Origin: Halopseudomonas pachastrellae
GTDB lineage: Bacteria; Pseudomonadota; Gammaproteobacteria; Pseudomonadales; Pseudomonadaceae
Reading direction: 5' to 3'
DNA: 64,000 nt
Assembly (NCBI RefSeq): GCF_900114765.1
Contig: NZ_FOUD01000008.1
Location: 1 to 64,000, forward strand
Shown: piece after piece, positions 2,973 to 8,140 of the stretch
Numbering within the stretch: the first letter of the stretch is position 1
Layout of the letters: every line of letters begins with the position of its first letter
Position numbers and translations under genes: made by a program
The notes under the pieces: model-generated
Told to the model about the DNA's origin: nothing
What the model saw: only the letters and a program-made list of their open reading frames with translations
The model's database searches: none

Positions 2973-4280
2973 CTACCCACCCCGCACCTGCCCAACCATG
3001 CCACGAATAACAATGGCTTCAATACTCCGCAGCAGCCGCATCTCTCCGCCAAATGTCGCCTTAAGTTCCGGGCGGGCCTTTACCAACTCAGCATTTTCCG
3101 CCAGCATCTGGTCTAGCAGGGGCAGCGCAGCGGCGCTGATGGCGTCCACCAGTTTGCGTACAGACTGCTTTGCGGTGGCTGGTTTGATGCCCATGGCTTC
3201 TGCGGCCTCGATCAGCAGCTCGGTACTTATCTGTGGCAACCTCTGACGGCCGAGGACGGGCCAGGCCAATTCGGCTTGTTCGGGCCAGCGGTCCTTGTCG
3301 CAGGCTTTGGTGCCGTAGACGGCGGTGCACAGCAGATCGTAGAACGGTGCCAGCTGCACGCCCTTGGGTGTAGGTAAAAAGCTCAGGTTCTTCAGGTGCG
3401 CGTCTTCATTGCCCACCAGCACGTTAAACACCAGCCACTCAAACAGGCGCAGCCTTGCCAACGCGGAGGGTCGGCAGCGGCTTGCCAGGTCGGCCAGCCG
3501 CTCAATACTGCCGGCGCTGTATTTGAACTCGCGGGACAGCCCATCCATCTGGCAGGCGTCGATGCAGTGCAGGCGCGCGCAACCGTCCGGGGTTAAGACC
3601 CGGTCAAAGCGTTCGATGAGAAACACCGGCTCGGGCACATAAAGCCGCGTGACCTTGGGAACCGGCAGGCCGACACGCCCGGCCAGCGTCATGACAAACC
3701 ATTCATTGATCACCGAGTGGCGCCAGTCGTTGCCAGGGTGATTCGGCTTGAGGATGTGCGTTGAAGGCTCGCTGCCTACCGGTTCAAGGAGTTGGCCGTC
3801 ACGATAGATCACCGCCACCTTGTGCTGCGCACCGGCGAGCGACATGCGCTTGGCGGCGCGCTGGGCCAGCGGCACCTCGGGCATGGACTGGATGCGCTGA
3901 GACAGCGTGACAGTCGACAGCGGTTGAGTACTGCCCGGTTGCGGCCGCTCGCCCGGCGGTAACAGGGTGATAGAGCCGGCCGACTCGGCGCCAAAATGCT
4001 GCAGCAAGGCAAAGGCGTCGGCGATGGCTACGCCAGCTGCCTCGGCGATCAGGGTGCGCTGTCCCTCTTCCGGCAGCAGGTTATCGAAGTGCCACTGCAC
4101 CGGGCGCTGCGTGGCGCCATCAATGTGTTCTTCTGCTTGCAACGGCAACAGCGGACACAAGGGATAGGCGCTCGTATCCGCCAGCCAGTCCGAACTGTAA
4201 GCAAAGGCCCAGAGCCCGTTGCTTTCGCGCAGGGTGCCAATACATGTGTGGTTGATCCACGCAATGAGTGTTCTGGCCAT
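2973..4280 (-). CDS. hipA: HipA-family serine/threonine kinase toxin
   Basis: Kinase toxin of a type II toxin-antitoxin system; E. coli HipA phosphorylates glutamyl-tRNA synthetase and induces persistence, but the target here is unknown. The 435 residues cover the N-terminal HipA_N region (about 1-105) and the HipA_C kinase core. By alignment to E. coli HipA: Ser147 (MSLAGAQHK, autophosphorylation loop), Lys178 (ILKP), Asp293 and Asn298 (NEDAHLKN, catalytic) and Asp315 (FYDLL, metal). All key residues are present, so it should be active. ATG 4280 overlaps the antitoxin stop (TAATG), which shows translational coupling; a longer frame reaching 4421 would overlap the antitoxin and is rejected. 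Confidence 0.9.
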   Translation of the reverse strand: MARTLIAWINHTCIGTLRESNGLWAFAYSSDWLADTSAYPLCPLLPLQAEEHIDGATQRPVQWHFDNLLPEEGQRTLIAEAAGVAIADAFALLQHFGAESAGSITLLPPGERPQPGSTQPLSTVTLSQRIQSMPEVPLAQRAAKRMSLAGAQHKVAVIYRDGQLLEPVGSEPSTHILKPNHPGNDWRHSVINEWFVMTLAGRVGLPVPKVTRLYVPEPVFLIERFDRVLTPDGCARLHCIDACQMDGLSREFKYSAGSIERLADLASRCRPSALARLRLFEWLVFNVLVGNEDAHLKNLSFLPTPKGVQLAPFYDLLCTAVYGTKACDKDRWPEQAELAWPVLGRQRLPQISTELLIEAAEAMGIKPATAKQSVRKLVDAISAAALPLLDQMLAENAELVKARPELKATFGGEMRLLRSIEAIVIRGMVGQVRGG

Positions 4281-4573
4281 TAGTCCGCCTTGCTGCCGGC
4301 AGAGGCTGCCCGAGCGTGCAGCTCGTTTAACCTGGCCTGCACCTGCTCGGCAAAGGGCTCGGGTACCTCGACAGAGAGGGTCAGCCCCAGCTCCTGCATG
4401 ACCTGGAACAGCTTGCCCCATTGCACCGAGTCGCTCCCGCGCTCGACCTTGCCGAGGAAGTTCTCAGACACGCCAATGCTGCCGGCGGCATCATCCTGAC
4501 GCAGCTGCATGGCCTTGCGGCTGGCCCTGACCAACGGCCCAATTTGCTCCGGGGAGCTGATGTGGAATTTCAT
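4280..4573 (-). CDS. hipB: HipB-like antitoxin (XRE-type HTH)
   Basis: A 97-residue DNA-binding antitoxin, first gene of the pair. The Cro/C1-type helix-turn-helix spans about residues 12-67, with recognition region QDDAAGSIGVSENFLGKVERGSDSVQWGKLFQVM. It should bind the kinase and autorepress through the four operators just upstream. The ATG at 4573 has GAGG 7 bp upstream; a GTG one codon earlier is possible. The C-terminal tail (about 75-97) is Ala/Glu/Arg-rich and is probably the flexible segment removed by proteolysis, as in E. coli HipB (inference). Confidence 0.87.
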   Translation of the reverse strand: MKFHISSPEQIGPLVRASRKAMQLRQDDAAGSIGVSENFLGKVERGSDSVQWGKLFQVMQELGLTLSVEVPEPFAEQVQARLNELHARAASAGSKAD

Positions 4574-4598
4574 CACCCAACCTCAATAGTCATCTGGC

Positions 4599-4770
4599 AA
4601 TCCTCACGACTGTAAGGAAAGAAGCCGATACCATTGCAACATAGCAGAAAACCGCACGAACGTAAGGATTTTTCCGTCAACATAAGCAAACAGATATAAA
4701 TCCTCACGATTGTGAGGATTTATATACTTTCAGGCTTGATTTAACGCCAATCCTCACGATCGTGCGGATT
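4599..4770. promoter_or_regulatory. Four HipB operators at exact 50-bp intervals
   Basis: Four related ~20-bp boxes begin at 4601, 4651, 4701 and 4751. Their common pattern is WCCKCACGA-N2-GTRMGGA. Box 3 is the best palindrome and extends to 4694-4725 with ATATAAA/TTTATAT arms; box 4 (4749-4770) is symmetric but for one pair. The TCC...GGA half-sites about eight bases apart match the TATCC-N8-GGATA type of E. coli hipBA operators. The set lies directly upstream of the antitoxin start, so it is the likely autoregulatory region. Confidence 0.85.
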
Positions 4771-4857
4771 AAGGACCTGCTATGAGCGACCAAGGTGCGG
4801 GCTTTTAACCTTCTGCCGCTTGTGCGGCAAGGCTCTTGATAGCCCCGGGGGACGACT

Positions 4858-6033
4858 CTAACAATACTTGGCGTTGTTACGCCCCGCGTCCTTGGCCGCG
4901 TACAGGGCGCGGTCGGCGCGGTTGAAGAGGTCGTCAATCGAGGTGTCGTCGCGGCGCCAGTCGGTCAAACCGATACTGACCGTCACGCCGGGTAGCCCGG
5001 GCTCGCTGGTCACGGCGGCCAGCAGCAGGCGGTCGGCCAGTTCGCTGGCCTGCGCCATCGAGGTGGCGGGCAGCAGCAGAATAAACTCCTCGCCGCCCTG
5101 TCTGCCGAATACATCGGACTGCCGCAGGGTGTCTTCCATGCGCCGGCAAAAGGCCTGCAGCACGCGGTCTCCAACCTGATGCCCGTGCTGGTCGTTGATG
5201 GCCTTGAAGTGGTCCAGATCGAGCGACAGCACCGAGAAAGGCTCACCGCTGCGTCGGCTGCGTTTGAACAGGTCGCTGGCGGCGTCTACCACCGCGCGGC
5301 GGCTACGCACGCCAGTCAGCGTGTCGGTCATGGCCAGCTCTTCAAAATTGCTGCGGATACGTTCGGAGACGAGCAGCAGAAAGCCGATGTTGACGATCAC
5401 CAAGCCGAAGCTGAAGGTCCCCAGATAGAGTGCCTGCAGCCAGGACACATCAAGCATGCCCTGCCCGTCTTGCGGCTGAAAGATGGCATGCGCCCAGCGG
5501 GCACCAAACACCAGGGTCGAAAAGACCACCCAGAAAAAGGTAAAACCCGCGCCCAGCAGGCGCTGCTGGTGATCACCGCGGTGGCGATACAGCTCGCGGG
5601 CAAAGACGATGGCGTGCATCAGGCTGGCAGCAAAAACGTAGCCGGTCAGGCTCAGATAGCGGCCACGCAGGCTGTCCTCAACGTGAGTGAAATAGGTCTG
5701 CCCGCACCAGGCCACCACAAACAGCAACACCCAGACCTTGAGCTTTGGTCGGTGGCCGAAGTGCTTGGCGCTGCCAACCCAGTACAACGTGTAGGCCAGC
5801 ATCGCTGCGGTATTTTGCACAGTGAAGGTCAACCAGTCGGGCGCCGAGCCCCGCAGCAGAATCAGCACGCCCGCCAACGCGGTCAGCAGTGACCCCGCCG
5901 CCCAATGATGCACACCCGGAATCCGTGGCCGGGTAGCACGCCCCATCAGCAGCAGAACAATGCCCATGACGCCAACCAGCAGACAGGCCAGCATAATCAG
6001 GGTTTTCGGGTCGTAGAGGGGCGTTACAGCCAT
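4858..6033 (-). CDS. Membrane-bound diguanylate cyclase (GGEEF)
   Basis: Makes cyclic di-GMP from two GTP. Residues 1-225 hold about six or seven hydrophobic segments of an uncharacterised membrane sensor. A short linker (SERIRSNFEELAMTDTLTGVRSRRA) leads into the GGDEF domain. The active-site motif GGEEF is at 313-317, and the RxxD inhibitory I-site (RQSD, 304-307) is at the canonical five-residue spacing, so the enzyme should be active and product-inhibited. It is a single gene, convergent with nothing; a TGCCGC/GCGGCA hairpin (about 4815-4830) lies after its stop. The input signal is not evident. Confidence 0.9.
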   Translation of the reverse strand: MAVTPLYDPKTLIMLACLLVGVMGIVLLLMGRATRPRIPGVHHWAAGSLLTALAGVLILLRGSAPDWLTFTVQNTAAMLAYTLYWVGSAKHFGHRPKLKVWVLLFVVAWCGQTYFTHVEDSLRGRYLSLTGYVFAASLMHAIVFARELYRHRGDHQQRLLGAGFTFFWVVFSTLVFGARWAHAIFQPQDGQGMLDVSWLQALYLGTFSFGLVIVNIGFLLLVSERIRSNFEELAMTDTLTGVRSRRAVVDAASDLFKRSRRSGEPFSVLSLDLDHFKAINDQHGHQVGDRVLQAFCRRMEDTLRQSDVFGRQGGEEFILLLPATSMAQASELADRLLLAAVTSEPGLPGVTVSIGLTDWRRDDTSIDDLFNRADRALYAAKDAGRNNAKYC

Positions 6034-7637: not shown

Positions 7638-7889
7638 ATGGACGCTATCAGCTATACCGCCGCGCGAACCAATCTGGCCAAGACCATGGATCAGGTCTGC
7701 GAAGATCACGCGCCCATCATTATTACCCGCAGCAAATCTCAGTCGGTGGTCATGATGTCACTGGAGGATTATGAAGCGCTGCAGGAAACGGCCTACCTGT
7801 TGCGCTCGCCGCGCAACGCACGCCGCCTGCTGGACTCGATTGCCGAACTGGAGCAGGGAGAAGGGCAGGAACGGGCACTGGGCGAATGA
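7638..7889 (+). CDS. yefM: YefM-type antitoxin (Phd/YefM family)
   Basis: An 83-residue antitoxin that binds and neutralises YoeB and represses its own operon. The N-terminal Phd/YefM fold is clear: MDAISYTAARTNLAKTMDQV, then IIITRSKSQSVVMMSLEDYEALQETAYLL. The C-terminal segment (SPRNARRLLDSIAELEQGEG) is the toxin-binding tail. ATG 7638 follows the TGTACA operator at the normal distance; an in-frame start at 7578 would run through the operator. The gene overlaps yoeB by four bases (ATGA). Confidence 0.93.
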   Translation: MDAISYTAARTNLAKTMDQVCEDHAPIIITRSKSQSVVMMSLEDYEALQETAYLLRSPRNARRLLDSIAELEQGEGQERALGE

Positions 7890-8140
7890 AACTGATCTTC
7901 GCGCAGAGTGCCTGGGAGGATTATCTGTACTGGCAGAAAACCGACAAGAAGCTGGTCGGCCGCATCAATGTACTAATCAAAAAGATTCAACGTGACCCGT
8001 TCGCTGGCGTCGGCAAGCCGGAGCCGCTAAACCACAACCTCGCCAGCTATTGGTCACGGCGCATCAATAGCGAGCACCGCATCATCTACAAGATGACCGA
8101 CGATGCGCTACTGATCGCCCAGTTGCGTTACCACTACTGA
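7886..8140 (+). CDS. yoeB: YoeB ribosome-dependent mRNA endonuclease toxin
   Basis: An 84-residue toxin that cleaves mRNA in the ribosomal A site. The catalytic residues of E. coli YoeB fall at identical positions: Glu46 (KPEPL), Arg65 (NSEHR), and His83-Tyr84 at the C-terminus (RYHY). The length equals that of the E. coli protein and nothing is damaged, so the toxin should be active. Its translation is coupled to the antitoxin by the ATGA overlap. It ends 11 bp before the convergent trmB stop. Confidence 0.95.
   Translation: MKLIFAQSAWEDYLYWQKTDKKLVGRINVLIKKIQRDPFAGVGKPEPLNHNLASYWSRRINSEHRIIYKMTDDALLIAQLRYHY

Follow-up and report, generated by a model that had tools for sequence, protein, structure and literature searches.

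Four palindromic boxes at a 50-bp step upstream of hipBA in Halopseudomonas pachastrellae and the conservation of their spacing

Upstream of the hipBA genes of Halopseudomonas pachastrellae, four related palindromes form a ladder with a step of exactly 50 bp, an arrangement that is real and lies far beyond chance. The 50-bp regularity is widely conserved and lineage-specific, and the geometry outlives the operator sequence. The system is ordinary in kind, that is, autoregulation by HipB. We consider it probable that the boxes are autoregulatory HipB operators and that their step is fixed by contacts, which we infer, between neighbouring DNA-bound HipB-HipA complexes.

The hipBA operon and its upstream boxes

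Judging from its domains, the kinase encoded in the window (the whole stretch of 64,000 nt that was analysed) would be the HipA-family member of a hipBA type II toxin-antitoxin module. Its HipA_C and Couple_hipA domains are both present, with scores above the cut-offs (PF07804, 175.6 bits; PF13657, 69.2 bits). The hipB product scores 25.7 bits with PF13560 (cut-off 27) and 57.3 bits with TIGR03070 (cut-off 71.65), and its gene lies directly upstream of hipA and overlaps it, a position that fits a HipB-type HTH antitoxin. The four boxes sit between hipB and a diguanylate cyclase gene, in the intergenic region 4574-4857 (Table 1). In the same neighbourhood, a second type II pair, a YefM-like antitoxin and a YoeB toxin (PF02604, 92.1 bits, and PF06769, 130.3 bits), is located at 7638-8140 on the plus strand, about 3 kb from hipB, and an IS110/IS116/IS902-type transposase gene (PF02371; 78-455, plus strand) lies about 2.5 kb from hipA.

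Table 1. Features of the hipBA region in the window
Feature	Position	Strand	Remarks
hipA	2973..4280	-	HipA-family kinase, predicted toxin; start codon overlaps hipB stop (TGATG)
hipB	4280..4573	-	97-aa XRE-type helix-turn-helix protein, putative antitoxin/repressor; ATG at 4573, GTG one codon upstream possible
Box 1	4599..4620		closest to hipB; 20-nt core 4600-4619, -46 to -27 of hipB ATG; imperfect palindrome
Box 2	4649..4670		core 4650-4669, -96 to -77; imperfect palindrome
Extended palindrome around box 3	4694..4725	- (hairpin flag)	32 bp, perfect 14-bp arms, 4-nt centre; terminator-like hairpin
Box 3	4699..4720		core 4700-4719, -146 to -127; within the extended palindrome
Tentative promoter	4721..4750	-	TTGGCG-18-TATATA, between boxes 4 and 3; 7 of 12 matches, weak
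Box 4	4749..4770		core 4750-4769, -196 to -177; near-perfect palindrome
Diguanylate cyclase gene (GGDEF)	4858..6033	-	upstream neighbour, codirectional; bounds the intergenic region

A repeat search of the window returned one repeat family of four 22-nt copies, with start-to-start distances of 50, 50 and 50 bp. The sequence-only reading had placed the boxes at 4601, 4651, 4701 and 4751 with a pitch of 50 bp, and had described box 3 as extended to 32 bp and boxes 1 and 2 as imperfect. Each of these descriptions is borne out: the starts given lie two bases inside the repeat copies, box 3 is embedded in the longer palindrome, and boxes 1 and 2 have 6 of 10 half-pairs each, whereas boxes 3 and 4 each have 9. 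On the minus strand the extended palindrome is followed by a T-rich stretch, and the hairpin, if transcribed, might attenuate read-through.

When the sequence of box 3 was searched with up to three mismatches, the matches in the window were boxes 3 and 4 only, and none of 100 shuffles gave a match. A weight matrix was trained on relatives, with the window excluded from training; it scored the window's four boxes at 31.9, 31.5, 23.9 and 23.8 bits (maximum 34.2). In the upstream regions of 68 relatives, whose own sites were included in the training, it found 205 sites of at least 10 bits, versus 0-2 per round in five shuffles. Among the matches with up to three mismatches, no second cluster of boxes was seen in the 3.93-Mb genome. 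The best candidate for a second HipB-controlled site, C8:68477, is the single palindromic two-mismatch site elsewhere in the genome; it has no ladder and lies inside an open reading frame, presumably nqrD, and was rejected.

Conservation of the step among HipB and HipA loci

Close relatives of HipB were sought across all species genomes of any phylum, and the HipB protein scan of these genomes yielded 64 loci. In addition, 113 of 298 same-family genomes had a HipB match at E <=0.001, from which the best 30 places were taken as loci. Collapsing upstream regions more than 85% alike reduced 94 regions to 68, which come from gamma- and betaproteobacterial and Hyphomicrobium records and have HipB at 50-84% identity. 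All 68 regions carry at least two boxes of one palindrome (two boxes in 10, three in 48, four in 9 and five in 1). Random spacing of the boxes in relatives, which the sequence-only reading had named as a refutation of its interpretation, was not what we found: 134 of the 137 adjacent intervals are 49-51 bp. The individual counts are 48 bp (1), 49 (12), 50 (102), 51 (20), 66 (1) and 201 (1), with no interval near 40 or 60 bp among these relatives. The intervals between boxes 1 and 2, 2 and 3, and 3 and 4 are equally tight, with standard deviations of 0.56 (n=67), 0.43 (n=58) and 0.63 (n=10), respectively. The distance from box 1 to the ATG has a standard deviation of 11.2, a figure that includes one locus whose weak proximal box was overlooked. 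In 61 of the 68 regions the proximal box starts 21-27 nt ahead of the start codon, which puts its GGAT arm at the Shine-Dalgarno position. In the window and its nearest relative (L008) the entire ladder is located further upstream, with the proximal box at -46 and -57, and the step is the same. With no box model assumed, the autocorrelation of the HipB set has its maxima at lags of 50 (z 13.3) and 100 (z 7.7).

More distant loci were collected with a HipB profile, which matched in 59 of 398 Pseudomonadota genomes at E 1e-6; 30 matches were taken as loci. The weight matrix found a ladder in only four of the 30, the window included. A box-free scan for palindrome pairs placed a distance of 49-51 or 99-101 bp among the three best pairs in 22 of them, a count that includes L118, whose pair does not exceed the top score from 30 shuffles. 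Three of the 30 loci have a pair at 27 or 54 bp among the best three.

In a survey of HipA, the Couple_hipA domain (PF13657) was sought in 299 Pseudomonadota genomes and was present in 96. There were 150 places, of which 146 were used, the window's own and three partial matches (G409:C70, G497:C12 and G453:C32) being excluded. The scan covered as much as 650 bp, stopping 150 bp short of the domain match, and looked, again without a box model, for similar palindromes 20 to 130 bp apart. In 83 of 146 loci a pair scored at least 27; the same score was reached in 6 of 146 control regions from hipA coding sequence and in 4 of 438 shuffles. Twenty-four loci fell into a class with steps of 49-51 bp and 26 into a class with steps of 26-28 bp, 33 had other or irregular steps, and no ladder was detected in 63. 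The 198 resolved steps comprise 27 (57), 28 (18), 30-31 (20), 39-41 (18), 49 (9), 50 (32) and 51 bp (8), with 36 others. Within the classes, which were themselves defined by ladders, autocorrelation peaks at 50, 51 and 100 and at 27, 54 and 81. Over all 146 loci, lags 27 (z 4.8) and 54 (z 3.6) are prominent, and lag 51 is weak (z 2.4), below the top value of the coding control (z 2.8). Symmetric alternating ladders also exist, with steps of 28/39/28 (as in E. coli), 31/44-47/31 and 40/46/40 bp. Six loci of deeper HipA clades (L179, L180, L202, L188, L195 and L237) have alternating ladders of 31/44-47/31, 40/46/40 or 30/46/30 bp, and these apparently represent further geometry classes.

The operator sequence varies widely inside a pitch class and tracks the HipB recognition helix. 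An HTH protein could be aligned for 75 of the 83 ladders, and pairs more than 80% identical were left out of the Mantel test. Similarity of recognition helices correlates with similarity of operators (Mantel r 0.355, 75 loci; none of 999 permutations as high), with a partial r of 0.239 after the effect of the rest of the HTH domain was removed. The correlation is 0.51 within the 27-bp class (21 loci) and 0.69 within the 50-bp class (22 loci), although the mean operator-profile correlation in the latter is only 0.35. The operators of the 50-bp class are diverse and include ATCCTCAC..GTGAGGAT, TTCCCG..CGGGAA, ATCGA..TCGAT and AATCACC..GGTGATT.

The pitch class follows the HipA lineage. On a FastTree phylogeny of 140 HipA rows, from which loci with HipA shorter than 250 residues (L155, L166, L184, L192, L219, L241, L250 and L279) were omitted, the pitch labels are clustered, requiring 35 changes for four labels versus 70.5 when shuffled. 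With undetected loci treated as a state, the 50-bp class takes 9 changes and the 27-bp class 10; with these loci omitted, the 50-bp class takes 6 against the rest. A mixture-model tree was built from 61 selected rows. Of these, 55 belong to the 70-row HipA clade in which the 140-row tree places the window and E. coli; three more are S. oneidensis-like, and the remaining three serve as outgroup. On this tree one change, with a support of 99, separates the 50-bp from the short-pitch class (about 17 in shuffles), the short-pitch group being made to include the 28/37-39/28 ladders (E. coli, L154 and L159) and L149 (61, 27, 27, 27). The 15 clade rows omitted are L164 and L169 (27 bp), L175 (50), L150 (53), L168 (102), L176 (26, 54), L207 (77), L226 (55), and, with no ladder detected, L145, L153, L156, L158, L165, L167 and L174. 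L201 and L261 fall outside the clade of the window and E. coli; the ladder that put L201 in the 50-bp class is one GC-rich pair and is probably due to chance. Ladderless or irregular rows were rescanned with looser settings, a pair being accepted if no more than 4 of 200 shuffles equalled it. Pairs at the pitch of the class, or at a multiple of that pitch, were recovered in 3 of 6 rows on the 50-bp side and 10 of 11 on the 27-bp side. On the 50-bp side L135, L246 and L199 gave this signal, L203 was marginal, and L257 and L150 gave none. Two loci that fall within the 50-bp portion of the HipA tree, L200 and L223, have steps of 38-39 bp (one of 36), about one helical turn below 50, which shows that the step can change. 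Class-specific residues of HipA are not concentrated in N-subdomain 1, the dimer surface in E. coli (8 of 99 columns versus 25 of 296 elsewhere).

What may fix the step

In the mechanism that we favour, a HipB dimer would sit on each 20-22-bp palindrome and carry HipA on both sides. Adjacent HipB2HipA2 complexes would touch, presumably through one HipA of each, and the rigid contact so formed would set the 50-bp step, with a different contact geometry in the 50-bp and short-pitch lineages. The array would cover the promoter, its -10 element abutting a box, and full occupancy would silence the operon and hold HipA in an inactive array. Since the contact geometry would belong to the protein assembly, the step would be inherited with the HipA/HipB lineage, while operators co-evolve with the recognition helix and spacers drift. 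The sequence-only reading had called the boxes HipB operators, an assignment that gains indirect support from their position before hipB, their palindromic form and the operator similarity that follows the recognition helix across loci; HipB is predicted to bind them in H. pachastrellae. The suggestion of that reading that stacked dimers or a HipBA multimer lie behind the strict pitch is likewise supported indirectly: the step persists in distant HipBA systems whose spacers and operators differ, and intervals near 40 or 60 bp are missing in the close relatives. A multimer might also wrap the DNA, as the same reading proposed. The HipA dimer, reportedly described by Schumacher in 2015, is said to hide the active site. 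Counting against the mechanism, 63 of the 146 survey loci are without a ladder and 33 lie outside the two main classes. Other points against it are the 38-39-bp steps of L200 and L223, the larger number of label changes on the 140-row tree and the class-specific HipA residues, which show no enrichment in N-subdomain 1. In addition, our confidence is slightly lowered by the off-ladder sites noted below, by the weak lag 51 and by a non-cooperative reading of Legionella HipBST.

More tentatively, and with less chance of being right than otherwise, HipBA complexes might assemble as protein filaments, with DNA as their template and a repeat length characteristic of the toxin-antitoxin lineage. The ladder would then be a genomic ruler, with 50 bp for extended, S. 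oneidensis-like and 27/28 bp for compact, E. coli-like complexes, and lattice contacts would keep HipA inactive. If so, the number and spacing of operators would tune the ease of toxin release. The longest of the 83 ladders, at L173, has eleven HipB-like boxes, each exactly 27 bp from the next, in the stretch from 574 to 304 bp ahead of the hipA domain, and would be a good substrate for seeing a filament.

It is unlikely that the promoter alone sets the step, such that a 20-bp operator is followed by 30 bp just holding the -35/-10 core of a sigma-70 promoter and the polymerase site has a box on either side. A sequence resembling a sigma-70 promoter, with 9 or more of 12 matches, occurs in 31 of the 68 relatives' regions versus 8 of 68 in one shuffle round, and in 18 of these 31 the -10 element begins 4 bp ahead of the proximal box. 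Of the other 13, 11 have it one or two steps further upstream, within 2 bp of the same register, and the proximal spacer of 42 loci shows a weak consensus TTGgCA-17-nATAAT. In the window the tentative -10 element starts 7 bp ahead of box 3, the commonest offset in relatives being 4 bp ahead of a box. However, steps 2-3 and 3-4 are as tight as step 1-2, though presumably one spacer alone holds the promoter, and this makes promoter geometry less likely as the sole cause. Moreover, the 27/28-bp class is equally regular without room for a promoter inside the spacer.

Helical phasing by itself, whereby HipB dimers face a given side of the DNA and bending or looping does the rest with no fixed contact between complexes, also seems improbable to us. 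E. coli HipB is described as bending its operator by 70 degrees (PMC3920265), and steps of 28, 39 and 50 bp differ by 11 bp, about one turn. Phasing would, however, permit 39-40 or 60-61 bp in close relatives, where none of the 137 intervals has such a length; L200 and L223 at 38-39 bp are more distant. Finally, that the step is a functionless relic of the tandem duplication of a 50-bp unit of operator plus spacer, as the exact period of the four copies had suggested, is hardly credible and was rejected, because spacers within a locus are 27% identical versus 26% when shuffled (78 pairs; 17-33% in the window), spacer columns in 42 loci show little conservation beyond A/T box flanks and the weak promoter-like signal, and the step persists among loci with unrelated operators, where traces of duplication would be erased.

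Returning to contacts between HipB-HipA complexes, operator spacing can be read from sequence alone, and if the pitch classes reflect quaternary structure, genomes report how HipBA packs on DNA. The proposed role of HipA-HipA contacts in quieting a persistence toxin would then be testable by spacing mutants outside E. coli. The ladder also provides a signature by which hipBA operators can be found in sequence even when they are too diverged to be recognised.

Comparison with known systems

Evenly spaced HipB operators are already known from E. coli, Caulobacter and Legionella HipBST. A published conserved operator step, or published HipBA pitch classes, were not found in the titles and abstract openings among the matches listed, which mostly leave out subscription literature and give weak evidence of absence. 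The hipBA1 and hipBA2 promoters of Caulobacter crescentus resemble the window in their repeated series of inverted repeats; these are described as identical, at intervals consistent with the higher-order complexes of E. coli (PMC7029023), with three operator sites each (PMC8545095). For Legionella HipBST, PMC10653801 reports three HipB sites that are evenly spaced in nearly all of 28 species and to which HipB binds in gel shifts. The authors suggest that the Legionella sites can show intermediate occupancy, unlike those of E. coli, where HipB binds cooperatively. The even spacing is shared with the window, but in Legionella the gaps are 53 bp, the motif is another one and the toxin is split into HipS and HipT, whereas the window encodes a single 435-aa HipA with both domains.

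E. coli K-12 has four palindromic HipB sites (O1-O4) upstream of hipBA, described as cooperative operators with HipA as co-repressor (PMC3920265). The sequence-only reading had drawn this parallel, which holds for the number of operators and fails for their form: the E. coli steps are 28/39/28 bp instead of 50/50/50, and the E. coli consensus is TATCCN8GGATA, with N8 between ATCC and GGAT, instead of ATCCN12GGAT. In the tree of 61 selected rows, E. coli HipA belongs to the short-pitch clade and the window's HipA to the 50-bp class.

The nearest solved relative of the window's HipA is S. oneidensis HipBA (PDB 4PU3, 4PU5; 134.8 bits versus 105.6 for E. coli), which is also the nearest solved relative of the HipB profile. 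According to PMC10627512, this complex is extended, like E. coli HipBST, whereas that of E. coli HipBA is compact, with two HipA head-to-tail around HipB. The N-terminal subdomain of HipA is described as taking part in dimerisation on DNA (PMC6581861), and PMC7029023 gives the view that hipA7 disturbs the dimerisation of HipA in its complexes with HipB and operator. The extended versus the compact complex, together with HipA dimerisation on DNA, leads us to propose that contact between neighbours sets the step; that an extended complex of the S. oneidensis type needs 50 bp is suggested by one solved structure and its relatives. Nineteen of 20 loci with S. oneidensis-like HipA, three of which were already in the survey, have at least two consecutive steps of 48-51 bp, and the twentieth has a pair at 99 bp; five of the 20 (L298, L300, L296, L299 and L304) carry an additional site off the ladder, at a distance of 41, 44, 90 or more bp. 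A second such set has a ladder of about 50 bp in seven of nine loci, with one pair at 99 bp and one locus without a ladder. A genome whose HipA is 93% identical to that of S. oneidensis over the 307 residues compared, and in which the ladder was read, has steps of 51/50/50 bp, with an operator (AAGTGTA..TACACTT) unrelated to the window's boxes. With a HipA on the S. oneidensis side of the HipA tree (support 99, selected rows) and a step of about 50 bp, the window groups with the S. oneidensis type.
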